DNA from: a virus
Length of the DNA: 20,949 nt
Virus record (IMG/VR): IMGVR_UViG_3300047284_000565
Span: 1-20,949 of that record
Strand: one strand, 5' to 3'
The notes under the pieces were generated by a model that did no database searches, was not told the origin of the DNA, and was given only the letters and a program-made list of their open reading frames with translations. Positions 1,662 through 7,790 of the stretch are shown in pieces. A program made the translations under genes and the position numbers. Positions within the stretch are counted from its first letter, which is position 1, and every line of letters starts with the position of its first letter.

Positions 1662-1902
1662 TTTTCTACAAAGTGACGATTCAAGGGTGCATGCCATCAA
1701 TTGCACCATTGAAGACTCCGCGATGGAAGTGGGCATCCTCTGCCTTGTTTCCTGCAACGATACCACCACTAGAATTTGCAATGAAAATCACGCTTTCATC
1801 GTGGAGCTTCCCCGAGAGGTGCGTTCCAGTCATGAAAGAGTGAAGGCTTTTAACGCTGTTCTGAACATTCTGAGCCATGAGCAAATACAGCTTCCTTCTT
1901 GA
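1651..1902 (+). CDS. Small unassigned protein between neck and chaperone genes
   Basis: This 83-residue protein starts at ATG 1651, overlapping the last 11 bases of the gp10-like gene, and ends 26 bases inside the G chaperone gene. Without it, about 215 bases of a tightly packed operon would be non-coding, so I take it as real. The sequence is acidic in its first half (IDFLQSDDSR, INCTIEDSAMEVG), with beta-like strands and three Cys, then a helical end (SSHERVKAFNAVLNILSH). No family is recognised. Position just before the G/GT chaperone suggests a small tail assembly or tail structural factor. The ribosome site is weak, as expected if it is translated by coupling. A shorter TTG start at 1658 in another frame was not preferred. 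Confidence 0.6.
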   Translation: MQIDFLQSDDSRVHAINCTIEDSAMEVGILCLVSCNDTTTRICNENHAFIVELPREVRSSHERVKAFNAVLNILSHEQIQLPS

Positions 1903-2425
1903 AACTAAGGCCACCGACTATTTCGAACTACTGCCTGACATTCGCATGAAGAAGTATGGCGGATGGCTGGTTGCCGAGGCTATTGAACAAGAGGAAATTA
2001 GCAAGCTACAGAGTCAAGCCACCATTCGAGCCGTGCAACTGGCCAAGCGAATTGCCATTGCCAAGGACATTCCCCTGGACGAAGCCTTTGGGCTTTTGCA
2101 GGGTGGTGGCGCCATCACAGAGGCTGAACTGCTTTCTGACTTCACGGAAGAAACGCTGGGCATGATTACTAGCGGCACTTCAGTGGAGGCGACGAACGCT
2201 CGAATGGTCACTGCATTTGTCCGTTCACGAGGACAGGGCTTGATTGACGGTGAATGGCAAGACTTGACTGATTGGGACCTTGAAGACACCAAAGGACTCC
2301 CCCGAGCCATCATTGCCAAGGTTGTTGAATTTATTTCTGCAGAACAAGAAGCTGAAATGAAGGAGGCAAACAACACGGCAAAAAAAGCGACGAAGAGGAA
2401 TTCTCCTCAACCGCCGAGCGCTTAG
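1877..2425 (+). CDS. Tail assembly chaperone, G-type
   Basis: This 182-residue protein lies directly before the tape measure gene, where siphoviruses encode their G and GT tail chaperones. The first 160 residues are mostly helical and acidic (LPDIRMKKYGGWLVAEAIEQEE, EAELLSDFTEETLGM). The last 20 are basic and disordered (AKKATKRNSPQPPSA) and are read only when ribosomes do not shift frame. G-type proteins bind the tape measure protein and keep it soluble during assembly; they are not in the finished virion. Codons 168-170 (GCA AAA AAA) form a slippery site from which some ribosomes enter the -1 frame and make the GT form. The start, ATG 1877, lies inside the end of the preceding small gene, so translation is probably coupled. 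Lambda gpG is 140 aa. Confidence 0.8.
   Translation: MSKYSFLLETKATDYFELLPDIRMKKYGGWLVAEAIEQEEISKLQSQATIRAVQLAKRIAIAKDIPLDEAFGLLQGGGAITEAELLSDFTEETLGMITSGTSVEATNARMVTAFVRSRGQGLIDGEWQDLTDWDLEDTKGLPRAIIAKVVEFISAEQEAEMKEANNTAKKATKRNSPQPPSA
2360..2408 (+). promoter_or_regulatory. Programmed -1 ribosomal frameshift signal
   Basis: Three elements line up. First, a strong internal Shine-Dalgarno-like AAGGAGG at 2360-2366. Second, 13 bases later, the heptamer A AAA AAA at 2380-2386, in the correct phase of the G frame for tandem slippage and followed by G. Third, after an 8-base spacer, a hairpin with stem GAGGA (2395-2399) and TCCTC (2404-2408) and a 4-base loop ATTC. The internal SD, slip site and hairpin layout resembles the frameshift signal of E. 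coli dnaX. The AAGGAGG has no start codon at a usable distance in any sensible frame, so its likely job is to promote slipping, not initiation. The stem is only 5 bp, so its contribution is uncertain. Confidence 0.8.
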
Positions 2426-2850
2426 AGCACAACGCCCGTCGCTTCCTGAAAGGACTCACTAATTGGAACGACCTTTATTTTCGCCTCAACGCATCCGACC
2501 TTAACGATGATCGCTGGAACGCAGCAAATTTCGGGAAGCAGCAGCTTTCCGACGTCAAGGCTGCGTTGAAATACCTAGAAAAGCACGACATCGCAAAGTA
2601 CAACACTGAAAGCATTGCCATCGCAAAGTTCGGAACTATGGTTTCGGCAATGATGGCTGGAAAGAAAAGCACTGTCAAGCCCGCTGATTTTCTTCCGTTT
2701 GACACGAAACTTATTGAAAAAGAGCAAGGCGTTACGCCTCAAAGCTTGTCCGTTCTCCATCGTCTTCTTAGCACTAAAAAGATGGATGGGCGTGTTGTTG
2801 GTATGTTGGCAGATGAAATCAAGATGGCTTCAATGCGTGAGCAAGCTTGA
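2386..2850 (+). CDS. T extension of the GT tail chaperone, made by -1 frameshift
   Basis: This reading frame is open from 2356 to a TGA at 2848-2850 but has no ATG or GTG to start on before the core of the domain; the first plausible start is a TTG at 2566, deep inside it. It is therefore expressed as join(1877..2386, 2386..2850): ribosomes slip back one base on A7 at 2380-2386. The fusion has 170 residues from G followed by 154 of T, 324 in total (lambda GT is about 280). The T part begins SDEEEFSSTAERLEHNARRF, contains a helical core (LKGLTNWNDLYFRL) and a KPADFLPFD segment, and ends MASMREQA. In lambda, T recruits tail tube protein to the chaperoned tape measure, so only a minority of chains should carry it. 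Confidence 0.85.
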   Translation, partial: SDEEEFSSTAERLEHNARRFLKGLTNWNDLYFRLNASDLNDDRWNAANFGKQQLSDVKAALKYLEKHDIAKYNTESIAIAKFGTMVSAMMAGKKSTVKPADFLPFDTKLIEKEQGVTPQSLSVLHRLLSTKKMDGRVVGMLADEIKMASMREQA

Positions 2851-2888: not shown

Positions 2889-5800
2889 ATGGCAGCGGGC
2901 GCAGGTGACGTTCGTCTTCAGCTTGGCGTCACGCTTGACCTGGCCAGCTTTAGGCAGCAATTAGCTGCGGCATCGCGAGCGGCAGCATCTTACTACTATC
3001 CCGTCAATTTTGACAAAGCAGGCATTGATCGGCAATTTGCAGCGCTTGATAGGCAATTTAGAACAAAAAATTACAGACTAGAAGTCATTACAAATTTTGC
3101 GGCGGAGATTGAGAGCGCCGACAAACTAGTTAGAAAAATAGGAGAAGTTAAGCGGGCTGCGCAATCCTCTGGTCCACAATCACGCTCGGTGGGACTGGTC
3201 GATATAACAGCATTAAACCGCTTTCCAAGCAAAGGCGGTCCGAGCGCCTCTGAAATTGCTGCTCTTTACGAAAGCTTGGCTATTGCGGGCGTAGAAGGTT
3301 TTGAGCGTGGCGTCAAAAAAACTCGCGGCGAAATGCTCGCGCAAATTGGGACGATCGGGCAGGACGTTGTTGCAGGACTCCTGAACGGCCTAAAGGGGGG
3401 CGATGCGGCTATGGCGGCAGCCGCGCAAAGCCTTGGCACTGCGCTAATCAAAACCTTCAAGGCACTGCTTGGCATCGCTTCGCCTTCTCGAGTGTTTAGG
3501 GAGTTCGGGAAAAACATTGGGGAGGGCTTTGAGCAAGGCGCCACTGCCTCGATGGACAAGGCTTTTGACGCGCTAGAGCGACAGCTTCGGCAGCGGCTTA
3601 GCATGCTCCAAGGCATGATGAGTGGAGGGCGGGGGGCTTTTCCCTTTATCGCCAAAGGGGGACCCGTAGAGCAGAAGGCTTTGTTTGCCGAGGCCGCAAG
3701 CTTGGCGAGCAAGATTGACGAAGCTCGTGCTCAAATTAGCCAAATCCAAGCGCGTCGCGAATCGAGGTTGGCTTTTCAAAGCGAATCGCTGCAGCAAGCG
3801 TCAGCGCGATTGCTGCCACCGGCTCGAGATAGGTCTTTGCAGCCAGGGCGCACCACTATTTTTCCAGGAGGAGGCGCTGCAGAGGAATTGTCAAGGGGCT
3901 TCTTTCGTTCGTTGCAAAACACGCAAGATTTTTTCGCGAGAAATTTTGCCGCTAACACTTATCTGCCTAAAGCGAGTCGCGAACTTGCCTCTTCGATGAA
4001 AGCTGCATCTAGGCAGCTCACGGGCACGAGAATTGCAGGACTGCTCCCGTCGTCGGAAATGATGGAGCCGTTGCGCTTTCAACGAGCAGCACTTAGGGCT
4101 AGGGAGATTGACGAGGCTAATACTCAAAGGGCGCGACGAGGGTCTCTTGGGCAGTTCCCCATGGAGGGGATGATTGGCCCTTCTCGAAGCGTAGACAGAT
4201 CATTTAGTAATTACATCACTGCTGAATTTACTCGCATGATGAGAGCTGGAGCGCTGGGCGGCGGCTTTGCATTCCCTAACGCTCCCATGATGGGGCCATC
4301 TTCCGCGCTTCCGCCAAGAGGCTCATTGGGGCGCTTCCCCTCGACGGGAATGCTAGCAATTGGCGGGCCCTCTGCCGTTGGGCAGGCAATGGCAGGTCCC
4401 ACTCCGTGGTATAACACAAGCTTGGGAGCCCGTGGAGGGTACGTTCCAGGGGTCAGGTCGAGCGCCTTTTTCCCTATGGGGGGAATGATGGGACCCTCAT
4501 CCCCCCTTGGGCGCATTACGGCCCAAAGCAGCATGTTTGGGGGCAGTCCTCCTCCAGTACCTCCTGGCGGCGGTGGGGGTGGCTTTGGAGGGTTCGGGGG
4601 ATTTGGTGGTTTTGGTCGGGCGATGGGAGAAATTAACTTGCCAGGAGCTGGTTTAATCCGTGAGATAGGGGAAGAGTTCGCTTTTGCCACCAAGCAAGTG
4701 CTTTTGTATGGGCAAGCCTATAAGCTACTCGGTTTTGCTCAAGACTTCCCTGCACAGGTAGGTCAAGCTGTTGGGGAGCTGCAAAGCTTTAGGAACACGC
4801 TGAAGGCGATCACTCCAAACGCCCAAGAGGCCGCGAAATCAAACGCCTTGATTCTGGACTTGGTCAGCAAGTATAACGTTCCCCTTGAGTCGGCTAGAAG
4901 TGGATTTACCAAGCTATACGCATCTATGCAGCCAGCGGGCTTTGCTGGCGAAGAGGTGAGAGATCTGTTCACCGGCATTAGCAAAGCCGCCGCCACCTTT
5001 GGGATGAGTTCCGACAAAGTCGATCGAGTGACCTATGCCTTTGCTCAGATGGCCAGCAAGGGTCAAGTGATGAGCGAGGAATTAAAAGGGCAACTGGGCG
5101 ATGTTCTTCCGGGGGCGATGGCGCTATTTGCCGAAGCGGCGGGGTTTAAGGGGTCAAGTGCAATTGCTCAATTCTCAAAGGCGTTAGAAGATGGCGCCTA
5201 CAAAGGGCAAGCCATGAAAGACCTGCTTAATAATGTGACGATTTTGCTTAATCAAAAATTCTCAGAGGGAGCAAGGGGTGCGGCAAACACTTTCCAAGGT
5301 TCAATGAACAACATGAGGAACTCCCTCAAAGGTTTTTACGAGAGTTTTGAACCAATAGCTGTACAATTCCTTAATAGTTTTGTTTCTCCATTGAGTCAAG
5401 GCTTGAAGGACGCCACGGATGGTATCAATGCATTTTTTACTGGCACACAGGCCAAGACATCCGGCGGCATGGCGATAGCAAACGAACTGAAACAGTTGCA
5501 ACCAGCATTGCAGGGAATACAGAATAATATCAAGCAAATACTGCCAGTGTTTGGACAGTTGATTAAAATCGCCCTGGAAGTTGGCAAGATTTTTCTTTCA
5601 GTTGCTGGCAGTCCCTTGACGGGCTATTTGGTTCGCGTTTATGCGGTGGTGCTGCCGGTTATTACGGCATTTGGCATTTTGCGCACGGCAGTGGTGACAA
5701 TGCTTGGTCCACTTGGCCTGTTTAACGCTCAAATGCTTTTAGGAGTGGGCAGATTCACTGCGTTCCGCAATGCCATGAGCCTAACCGGTGCCACCGCCGC

Positions 5801-7790
5801 ACAAACCGCAACTGCAATTAGAGGTGTAAATGCTGCTCTGACAGGCTTGGTGGCGCGAACTGGCGTTGGCTTGGCCATTATCGGGCTGGGCATGCTGGCG
5901 GAGCGATTTCTCTCGGCTGGAGCTGCTGCTCAGACGGCTCGCCAGAAAATGCTGCAATTTGCTGATGCAGTTAAGGCTTTGGGTGAAGCAGGAGATGTGG
6001 CAGGCGTGACCGTGGAATTGGCAGAGCAGAAAGCCTTGGCGGCTCGCATTAAGCGTGCGCAAACATTGCTGAGCGACTTGCGAGCCGGAAAGAGAAGTGT
6101 TAGCCCCCAGCAGGCCGAGGAATTGCAGGCGCTTGGGCTTTCCTCCAACATGGCCTTCGCCCAAGAGGGTGGACAGCGCAACCTTACGGTACAGACAATG
6201 CCAGGGGCAATTTCCGCCAACTTAGGAGCGGCACAAAGAGGTTATCTGGAGGCTCAAACTAAAATTATTCAAGCAGAGCGTGCGCTAACGCAAGCAAGGA
6301 AACAGCGCGTTGAAACGGAAAAAGGACTGAGCAAAATTCAAGAAGAGCCTGATGTAAAAGGCGTCGCTAAAAAGGAAAGCGCTTACAATCAATTGCTACA
6401 AGAACAGCTTCAAAAGCAAAACGAAATCAATGCAATTGGCAAGGATGAGCTTTCTCAACTTGAAGCCAAAAGAGAGCTCGCGGCACAGCTCTTAAAGCTT
6501 CGCGTGGATGAAATCAATAGAACGCAAACCGGGCGCGTCAGGGAGTTGGCTCGATCAAATGAGCTGTTGGAATACAAGAAAATAGTAGCCGAAACTGACG
6601 AAGAGTGGAAAAACATAACAAGAGAAATTTCCGAAGCGGCAACAAAGGCCCAAGAATTATTTGACAAAATTTACAAGCAAGATACGCCGGAAATGACGCC
6701 CTTGCAGAAGGCGCTGGGCGACATCAAAAAAGAGACTGTTGACAATATTCAAGCCATAGACGAGCTGTTGAATTACGTCAACAAACGAGTGGGCACTCGC
6801 CCCGAATACAAAACCTTAGTCACTTCGCTCACTCAAATGAGGGGCGAGCGAGCTGGCATGACGCCCGCCCAGCAAGCGGCGGCTGCTGGAGTTCGCGTGA
6901 CACGAGATATTGCCAAAGATTTGCGTTCGGAATTGCAAACGGGAGCGCAAGCTTTTGCTCCGTCCACCGCTCTGGCTGGAGCGCAAGCCAAGCTTGGCCC
7001 TGACTGGATGCAGCTTTCTGGTCAGCGTCAAGGAGAAATAACGCAATTAGCCGGGCAGGTCGACTTGATGAAGCCATTTGTTGACATGGCTCAGGCAATA
7101 AAAGCATCGAGAGAAGAATTGCAAAAATTAACCGATATGAGATATCAGATTGTGCCCATGGCGCAAGCAATAGGATCTTCTTTTGCGGATTCTTTCAAGG
7201 GCATCGTAAGCGGTTCCATGACTGCTCAGCAGGCGTTAGCTAATTTTTTCCAAAGTGTTGGTAATTATTTCTTGGATATGGCGGCAAGGATGATTGCCAA
7301 GTGGATTGAGATGCAAATCATTGGACTCGCGGCTAGTTTGATCCCTGGAATCGGAGGTTTCTTTGGTGGCGGGGCTCGTGTGGGGCAATCAGTCGCCTTG
7401 CCATCTGGGGTGGGGATCGGAGCTGGCGGAGGTATTCTTCAAAATCCAGCAGGGCAGGGCTTTGGCACATTCGGCCCTAATTTTGGCATCCGTCAATTTG
7501 CCAACGGAGGCATTGTCAACGGTCCAACCATGGGATTGATTGGTGAAGGTCGTTACAATGAAGCGATCGTGCCATTGCCCAATGGCAAAAGCATTCCAGT
7601 GGACCTTGGAGATGGAGCAGGCAGCAACATTTCCACTAACATTGTTATCAATGTCAGCAACGGTCAGGCTCAAAGCAGCATGACTGGCGGTGGCGCTTCC
7701 GACTTCGGGCGCAAAATGGAAGGAGCAGTGAAGCAAGTGATCGTAAATGAGCTGCGTCCTGGCGGTGTTCTTGCAGGAGCCCGTCGATGA
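2889..7790 (+). CDS. Tail tape measure protein
   Basis: At 1633 residues this is the longest gene, placed straight after the chaperones as is standard. It threads the tube lumen, sets tail length and is later released into the host envelope. The N-terminus is helical (residues 10-100). Residues 195-216 carry the SPSRVFREFGKNIGEGFEQG motif frequent in tape measures. Residues 410-560 are Gly/Pro/Met rich with degenerate repeats, ending in a Gly run and four GGF units (560-577). Residues about 605-830 form the conserved tape measure domain (TIGR02675 type: FGMSSDKVDRVTYAFAQMASKG, MSEELKGQLGDVLPGAM). Hydrophobic stretches follow at about 914-945 and 986-1009, then coiled-coil-like Gln/Glu/Lys-rich helices (1080-1260). 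A C-terminal block has MTAQQALANFFQSVGNYFL, a hydrophobic segment (1467-1492) and FANGGIVNGPTMGLIGEG. ATG 2889 has only a weak ribosome site. Confidence 0.93.
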   Translation: MAAGAGDVRLQLGVTLDLASFRQQLAAASRAAASYYYPVNFDKAGIDRQFAALDRQFRTKNYRLEVITNFAAEIESADKLVRKIGEVKRAAQSSGPQSRSVGLVDITALNRFPSKGGPSASEIAALYESLAIAGVEGFERGVKKTRGEMLAQIGTIGQDVVAGLLNGLKGGDAAMAAAAQSLGTALIKTFKALLGIASPSRVFREFGKNIGEGFEQGATASMDKAFDALERQLRQRLSMLQGMMSGGRGAFPFIAKGGPVEQKALFAEAASLASKIDEARAQISQIQARRESRLAFQSESLQQASARLLPPARDRSLQPGRTTIFPGGGAAEELSRGFFRSLQNTQDFFARNFAANTYLPKASRELASSMKAASRQLTGTRIAGLLPSSEMMEPLRFQRAALRAREIDEANTQRARRGSLGQFPMEGMIGPSRSVDRSFSNYITAEFTRMMRAGALGGGFAFPNAPMMGPSSALPPRGSLGRFPSTGMLAIGGPSAVGQAMAGPTPWYNTSLGARGGYVPGVRSSAFFPMGGMMGPSSPLGRITAQSSMFGGSPPPVPPGGGGGGFGGFGGFGGFGRAMGEINLPGAGLIREIGEEFAFATKQVLLYGQAYKLLGFAQDFPAQVGQAVGELQSFRNTLKAITPNAQEAAKSNALILDLVSKYNVPLESARSGFTKLYASMQPAGFAGEEVRDLFTGISKAAATFGMSSDKVDRVTYAFAQMASKGQVMSEELKGQLGDVLPGAMALFAEAAGFKGSSAIAQFSKALEDGAYKGQAMKDLLNNVTILLNQKFSEGARGAANTFQGSMNNMRNSLKGFYESFEPIAVQFLNSFVSPLSQGLKDATDGINAFFTGTQAKTSGGMAIANELKQLQPALQGIQNNIKQILPVFGQLIKIALEVGKIFLSVAGSPLTGYLVRVYAVVLPVITAFGILRTAVVTMLGPLGLFNAQMLLGVGRFTAFRNAMSLTGATAAQTATAIRGVNAALTGLVARTGVGLAIIGLGMLAERFLSAGAAAQTARQKMLQFADAVKALGEAGDVAGVTVELAEQKALAARIKRAQTLLSDLRAGKRSVSPQQAEELQALGLSSNMAFAQEGGQRNLTVQTMPGAISANLGAAQRGYLEAQTKIIQAERALTQARKQRVETEKGLSKIQEEPDVKGVAKKESAYNQLLQEQLQKQNEINAIGKDELSQLEAKRELAAQLLKLRVDEINRTQTGRVRELARSNELLEYKKIVAETDEEWKNITREISEAATKAQELFDKIYKQDTPEMTPLQKALGDIKKETVDNIQAIDELLNYVNKRVGTRPEYKTLVTSLTQMRGERAGMTPAQQAAAAGVRVTRDIAKDLRSELQTGAQAFAPSTALAGAQAKLGPDWMQLSGQRQGEITQLAGQVDLMKPFVDMAQAIKASREELQKLTDMRYQIVPMAQAIGSSFADSFKGIVSGSMTAQQALANFFQSVGNYFLDMAARMIAKWIEMQIIGLAASLIPGIGGFFGGGARVGQSVALPSGVGIGAGGGILQNPAGQGFGTFGPNFGIRQFANGGIVNGPTMGLIGEGRYNEAIVPLPNGKSIPVDLGDGAGSNISTNIVINVSNGQAQSSMTGGGASDFGRKMEGAVKQVIVNELRPGGVLAGARR
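4140..4517 (+). repeat. Degenerate repeats within the tape measure gene
   Basis: The encoded protein shows an imperfect motif of the form GSLGxFPxxGMxxGPS: residues 418-432 (GSLGQFPMEGMIGPS), 460-475 (FAFPNAPMMGPSSALP, partial), 478-495 (GSLGRFPSTGMLAIGGPS) and 527-543 (FFPMGGMMGPSSPLGRI, partial). They lie in a flexible Gly/Pro/Met-rich stretch between the N-terminal helical part and the conserved tape measure domain. DNA identity between copies is modest, so the repetition is mainly at protein level. Tape measure proteins often carry repeats related to tail length, but these units are short and few, and a linker role is as likely. Confidence 0.6.

Follow-up and report, generated by a model that had tools for sequence, protein, structure and literature searches.

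A probable -1 frameshift with a conserved internal Shine–Dalgarno element at the putative tail chaperone junction of a cyanophage-like lineage

How is a phage tail gene translated that overlaps its upstream neighbor and seems to bear no start of its own? This question is raised by the siphovirus tail region carried by the IMG/VR virus record IMGVR_UViG_3300047284_000565, of which the entire 20,949 bases (positions 1 to 20,949) were analyzed and are referred to here as the window. Immediately 5' of the tape-measure gene lie two overlapping open reading frames, as is characteristic of G/GT tail assembly chaperones, and the order G, then T in the -1 frame, then tape-measure gene is shared by the window and Synechococcus phage S-CBS4 (Table 1). 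A sequence-only reading of this DNA had placed a three-part signal at the G/T junction, composed of an internal AAGGAGG, a run of seven adenines (A7) and a short hairpin, and the coordinates and spacings of all three could be verified. It had also described the T frame as lacking an ATG or GTG before its core; this was borne out, the earliest start-type codon (ATG, GTG or TTG) being a TTG at position 2566, within the conserved core.

The -1 frameshifting in phage tail chaperones is textbook knowledge, usually described through the slip site alone, and dnaX and IS elements provide known cases of -1 shifts stimulated by a Shine–Dalgarno (SD) element. From the comparison of relatives presented below, we consider it highly probable (roughly 0.87) that the window encodes a lambda-type -1 ribosomal frameshift at A7, which is stimulated by the internal SD and yields a GT chaperone; a slip of this kind is very probable for more than a hundred relatives as well. 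Hereby, the majority of ribosomes would make G and terminate at 2425. A small fraction, while decoding GCA-AAA-AAA, would slip back by one base as the two Lys-tRNAs pair anew with AAA AAA; these ribosomes would read on in the T frame as far as 2850 and thereby make a GT fusion with the junction ...NTAKK-SDEEEFSS.... The portion of G before the slip site is predicted to be common to the G and GT products. By base-pairing to the anti-SD of the elongating ribosome, AAGGAGG would favor the backward slip, as happens in dnaX and IS911, and the short hairpin may contribute slightly. Since several genes of the window have SDs ahead of their starts, it is plausible that the host anti-SD takes part in such a pairing. 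In the manner of the lambda tail assembly chaperones, G and GT would then act on the tape-measure protein, the expected partner of such proteins.

Table 1. Features of the G/T region in the window (positions count from the first base of the window)
Feature	Position	Strand	Description
G-like tail assembly chaperone gene (putative)	1877..2425	+	ORF, zero frame, 182 aa
T frame, -1 relative to G	2356..2850	+	Open frame; expected C-terminal domain of GT
Internal Shine–Dalgarno (SD) AAGGAGG	2360-2366	+	13 nt between SD and slip site
Slippery heptamer A_AAA_AAA	2380-2386	+	Phase gcA AAA AAA in G frame
Dual-coded stretch	2387..2425	+	Basic G tail ATKRNSPQPPSA in frame 0; acidic T start SDEEEFSSTAER in frame -1
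Short hairpin GAGGA-ATTC-TCCTC	2395..2408	+	Arms 2395-2399/2404-2408, 5 bp, 8 nt past A7
Tape-measure protein gene	2889..7790	+	phrog_2335 tail length tape measure protein, E 2.4e-50

To collect relatives, viral contigs were searched using G, T and a G alignment as queries, and one genome contig and S-CBS4 were added. This provided 152 distinct junctions, of which 131 remained after removal of near-duplicates; besides S-CBS4, more than 130 distinct viral contigs carry a homologue of G. At 151 of the 152 junctions—that is, in every readable relative—T lies in the -1 frame, the sole exception (L135) being a contig whose frames are broken at many places. Both frames are under purifying selection, with dN/dS values of about 0.03–0.09 for G as well as for T. 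Synonymous divergence frequently exceeds 1.5, so that synonymous sites are near saturation and synonymous conservation is informative even between near relatives. A homopolymer is an error-prone place, and a sequencing or assembly error, or a pseudogene, could split a single gene into two frames. However, the identical split recurs in sequences of many metagenomes (151 distinct junctions) as well as in a cultured phage, with both frames kept by selection, which leaves this explanation with next to no probability. A scan of genome contigs for the G/T junction yielded a single contig, L216, without pointing to a clear family of prophages. This contig, filed under a Rhodobiaceae metagenome-assembled genome, bears the same junction with GGAGG 10 nt upstream, and may be a misbinned phage contig.

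T could also be made as a separate protein from an internal start, for which AAGGAGG would be the ordinary ribosome-binding site. The strong SD just 5' of T would suit this, as would the T-frame ATG that some relatives bear 33 nt past the heptamer. The T frame of the window, however, offers no ATG, GTG or TTG within reach of the SD, and the first 20 T codons lack all three in 97 of the 131 relatives; where the remaining relatives have an ATG, it lies within the conserved core and no SD stands at initiation spacing from it. An internal start is hence very improbable.

For the frameshift, the slip site is the most constant element. Within the window, A7 is rarer than chance (two found against 11 expected), and the other copy, at 3315, is out of phase. 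AAGGAGG by itself occurs at chance frequency (three against 2.3 expected), and because neither this motif nor a 5-bp stem is rare alone, the case for the three-part arrangement rests on comparison rather than on single-sequence rarity. The heptamer is A7 in 129 of the 131 nonredundant relatives, with one A_AAA_AAG and one A_AAA_AAC, and its phase is identical in every relative that carries A7. On a tree built with the junction excluded, it was altered only two times. Relatives that keep both frames and lack the slip site, which would have spoken against the sequence-only reading, were looked for among these junctions and none was found. Reporter frameshifting at A_AAA_AAA reached 10%, and tail chaperones showed 6–7% (PMC3711429); by analogy, an efficiency of a few percent might be expected for the window. 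A second phase-correct heptamer, A_AAA_AAT at 3065-3071 near the start of the tape-measure gene, is probably due to chance.

A homopolymeric slip site also brings slippage during transcription into play, as had been pointed out at the outset: the RNA polymerase would stutter on A7, so that in a minority of transcripts the run is shortened by one A (or lengthened by two) and conventional translation yields GT. It fits this idea that the homopolymer A7 is what is conserved, and not A_AAA_AAG, the best shifter in E. coli. On the other hand, functional transcriptional slippage in bacteria typically takes place at runs of about nine (PMC1088944), whereas the run here is exactly seven in 123 of the 131 relatives, eight in six and six in two. 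Moreover, transcriptional slippage leaves the SD at ribosomal spacing and the fixed codon phase without a role. It is therefore quite unlikely, and less likely than first allowed.

The internal SD was assessed in the clade of the window—78 members that form a single branch of the tree with a support of 100. GGAGG lies 9–14 nt upstream of the heptamer in 74 of these 78, against 10.2 expected from synonymous shuffles that use the clade's own codon usage, and its spacing is 10 or 13 nt. The codon choice within the element is equally strict. All clade members that encode Glu at the SD codon (74, or 75 once the register of L081 is corrected by eye) use GAG, whereas GAG accounts for 533 of 1527 Glu codons (35%) elsewhere in G; at the SD codons, Lys is always AAG and Gln always CAG, compared with 46% and 33% elsewhere. 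The GAG share in the other Glu columns of G ranges from 12 to 80%, where these control columns stem from an analysis whose sequences were chosen by SD presence; the SD codon and GGAGG counts themselves were made on the tree-defined clade and not on such an SD-selected set. Variants that change the amino acids and preserve the SD also occur (CTG-, CGG- and GAG-GAG-G, as well as AAG-GGG-G), and the four members without GGAGG carry GGAGA (one), GGGGG (two) or GGCGG (one). From this synonymous-site constraint, the SD is a genuine nucleotide-level feature in the clade of the window, and the proposal of an SD stimulator is well supported. SDs stimulate -1 shifts at a spacing of 9–14 nt (PMC5009743), a range that includes the 10 or 13 nt of the clade and in which the element corresponds to the SD of a dnaX-like signal. 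A published frameshift screen accepted spacings of 6–17 nt and found conserved SDs in three of 13 IS and prophage clusters (PMC4066793).

It might still be argued that A7 alone drives the shift and that AAGGAGG and the hairpin are mere by-products of codon choice and dual-frame coding. In clade C (20 members), A7 and both frames are kept and GGAGG is absent from the range (2.5 expected); hence, the SD is not indispensable. In its part on the SD, this argument runs against the 74 of 78 members and against a codon choice unlike that of any other Glu column, and as a whole we regard it as unlikely. For the hairpin, it has more to build on: all stem bases are in a non-wobble position of at least one frame, and the pair counts show no clear covariation.

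The hairpin lies within a stretch that both frames encode. This stretch has a mean net charge of +1.8 as G tail and of -3.0 as T start, and the two frames are oppositely charged in 128 of the 131 relatives, compared with 7% of control windows. Folded in isolation, the hairpin has a free energy of -5.1 kcal/mol. Resolved at 20 nt, its site exceeds most of the gene in stability (mean z -2.4), and the 74- and 114-nt stretches downstream show no unusual degree of structure (z -1.3 and -0.1). A stem of at least 5 bp is found in 63 of the 78 clade members and none in 15. Two-sided pair changes in the stem were no better than slid controls, and for clade A no consensus structure emerged from RNAalifold. 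In one frame or the other, if not in both, each base of the stem occupies the first or second position of a codon, and the conservation of the hairpin is for this reason inseparable from coding. With 5 bp, its absence in 15 members and no convincing covariation, the hairpin does not match the stable and conserved stem-loop of a dnaX-like signal. Of the three-part signal originally proposed, the SD and the heptamer thus stand, while the hairpin, which is conserved in part of one clade and not beyond it, is a possible weak stimulator.

Two further observations concern structures around the junction. A larger closing helix in the window (GCGACG...CGTCGC) was considered and rejected, as it is missing in the nearest relatives and vanishes when more sequence is folded. 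Two related viruses without GGAGG in range, L197 and L133, bear perfect stems of about 12 bp and about 9 bp; these differ in sequence and lie about 26–28 nt past the heptamer, which is too distant for a usual stimulator.

The elements around the slip site change more often than the slip site itself, with 14 changes on the tree for the SD class and 10 for the hairpin against the two of the heptamer. In the clade of S-CBS4 (16 members), GGAGG stands 16 nt from A7 in 16 of 16, against 1.1 expected, and the stem is a different one, GGCGAGGC/GCCTCGCC, altered to GGCAACGC/GCGTTGCC in L154 and L155. Clade B carries an alternative 8-bp stem in which two pairs changed on both sides, with weak support against shuffles. 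Tentatively, the slip heptamer might have been fixed while the stimulators were swapped in evolution—an SD at 10, 13 or 16 nt, other stems, or neither—with the dual-coded stretch acting as a charge switch by which the basic end of G turns into an acidic linker within GT, an extension that we find rather doubtful at present.

The assignment as tail chaperone draws on position, frameshift and T homology. T matches the Pfam family Phage_tail_T (PF06223) in 11 of 24 members, with a best E-value of 9.6e-4 and the protein of the window below the Pfam cut-off, and phrog_337 tail protein in 10 of 24 members. G gave no match in Pfam or to any described chaperone family. The AlphaFold models of G and T are of low confidence (pLDDT 60 and 67), and a fold search with the T model returned two sequence relatives and nothing else significant. 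Together with the gene order and the conserved frames, the weak and repeated Phage_tail_T matches fit the proposed -1 frameshift to a G–T tail chaperone, and we infer the chaperone role on these grounds.

The locus is similar to lambda gpG/gpGT in its overlapping frames between the tail genes and the tape-measure gene, in a slip site near the end of G and in a startless T that occupies the -1 frame and, in the window, bears a distant resemblance to Phage_tail_T. It differs in its A_AAA_AAA slip site—that of lambda is G_GGA_AAG—in the conserved upstream SD and in a G outside the described chaperone families. With the dnaX cassette of E. coli (SD, A_AAA_AAG and stem-loop), it shares an SD about 10–14 nt upstream, an A-rich heptamer and a downstream stem. 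However, the heptamer of the window ends in AAA, its stem comprises 5 bp and is not conserved compared with 11 bp in dnaX, and the shift lengthens the product in the window whereas it shortens that of dnaX. IS911 and the IS3 family likewise combine an A-rich heptamer, an SD and a downstream structure to give a fusion protein; there, the product is a transposase and the structure a larger branched one or a pseudoknot.

A pattern scan with AAGGAGGN{9,13}AAAAAAAG matched at least 120 stretches, which are a sample of such signals and no census. Among the matches listed, three had the frames of a G/T junction: one from the family of the window, L321 and L251. In L321 (1881-2222, - strand), AAGGAGG, 13 nt and A7 stand at the junction, and the two halves match Phage_TAC_13 and Phage_tail_T above the Pfam cut-offs; a search for its relatives found none. 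As its T and that of the window both fall in the Phage_tail_T family, L321 may be a very distant relative of the window's family and not a fully independent case. L251 has AAGGAGG, 10 nt and A7 ahead of a 1356-aa open reading frame at a tail-chaperone-like junction, and its family keeps the SD across three related sequences. The combination of SD and A7 is hence not confined to the group of the window.

This is a known mechanism that was previously unannotated in the cyanophage-like lineage of the window, including S-CBS4, and a strictly conserved internal SD is rarely documented for tail chaperone frameshifts. The open-access literature—the scope of our search, subscription papers lying outside it—yielded no description of a conserved SD at a tail chaperone frameshift site. 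S-CBS4 bears homologous G (65% identity) and T (51% identity), A7 and an upstream GGAGG, differing from the window in the 16 nt instead of 13 nt between GGAGG and A7. In its published annotation, gp032 and gp033 (L138, HQ698895.1 19779-20749) are hypothetical proteins that start late, and no frameshift is indicated, while A7 and both frames are intact. For this phage and its relatives, the annotation can be corrected, as T was previously truncated or missed. Across a large group of cyanosiphovirus-like viruses, most of them uncultured, no other stimulator is conserved as well as the SD. Related clades differ in the stimulators they retain, so that what the SD and the stem each contribute can be tested directly on homologous genes. 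If the exchange of stimulators and the charge switch were both functional, these phages would provide a natural series for studying how an SD may stand in for a stem, or a stem for an SD, at a single slip site.
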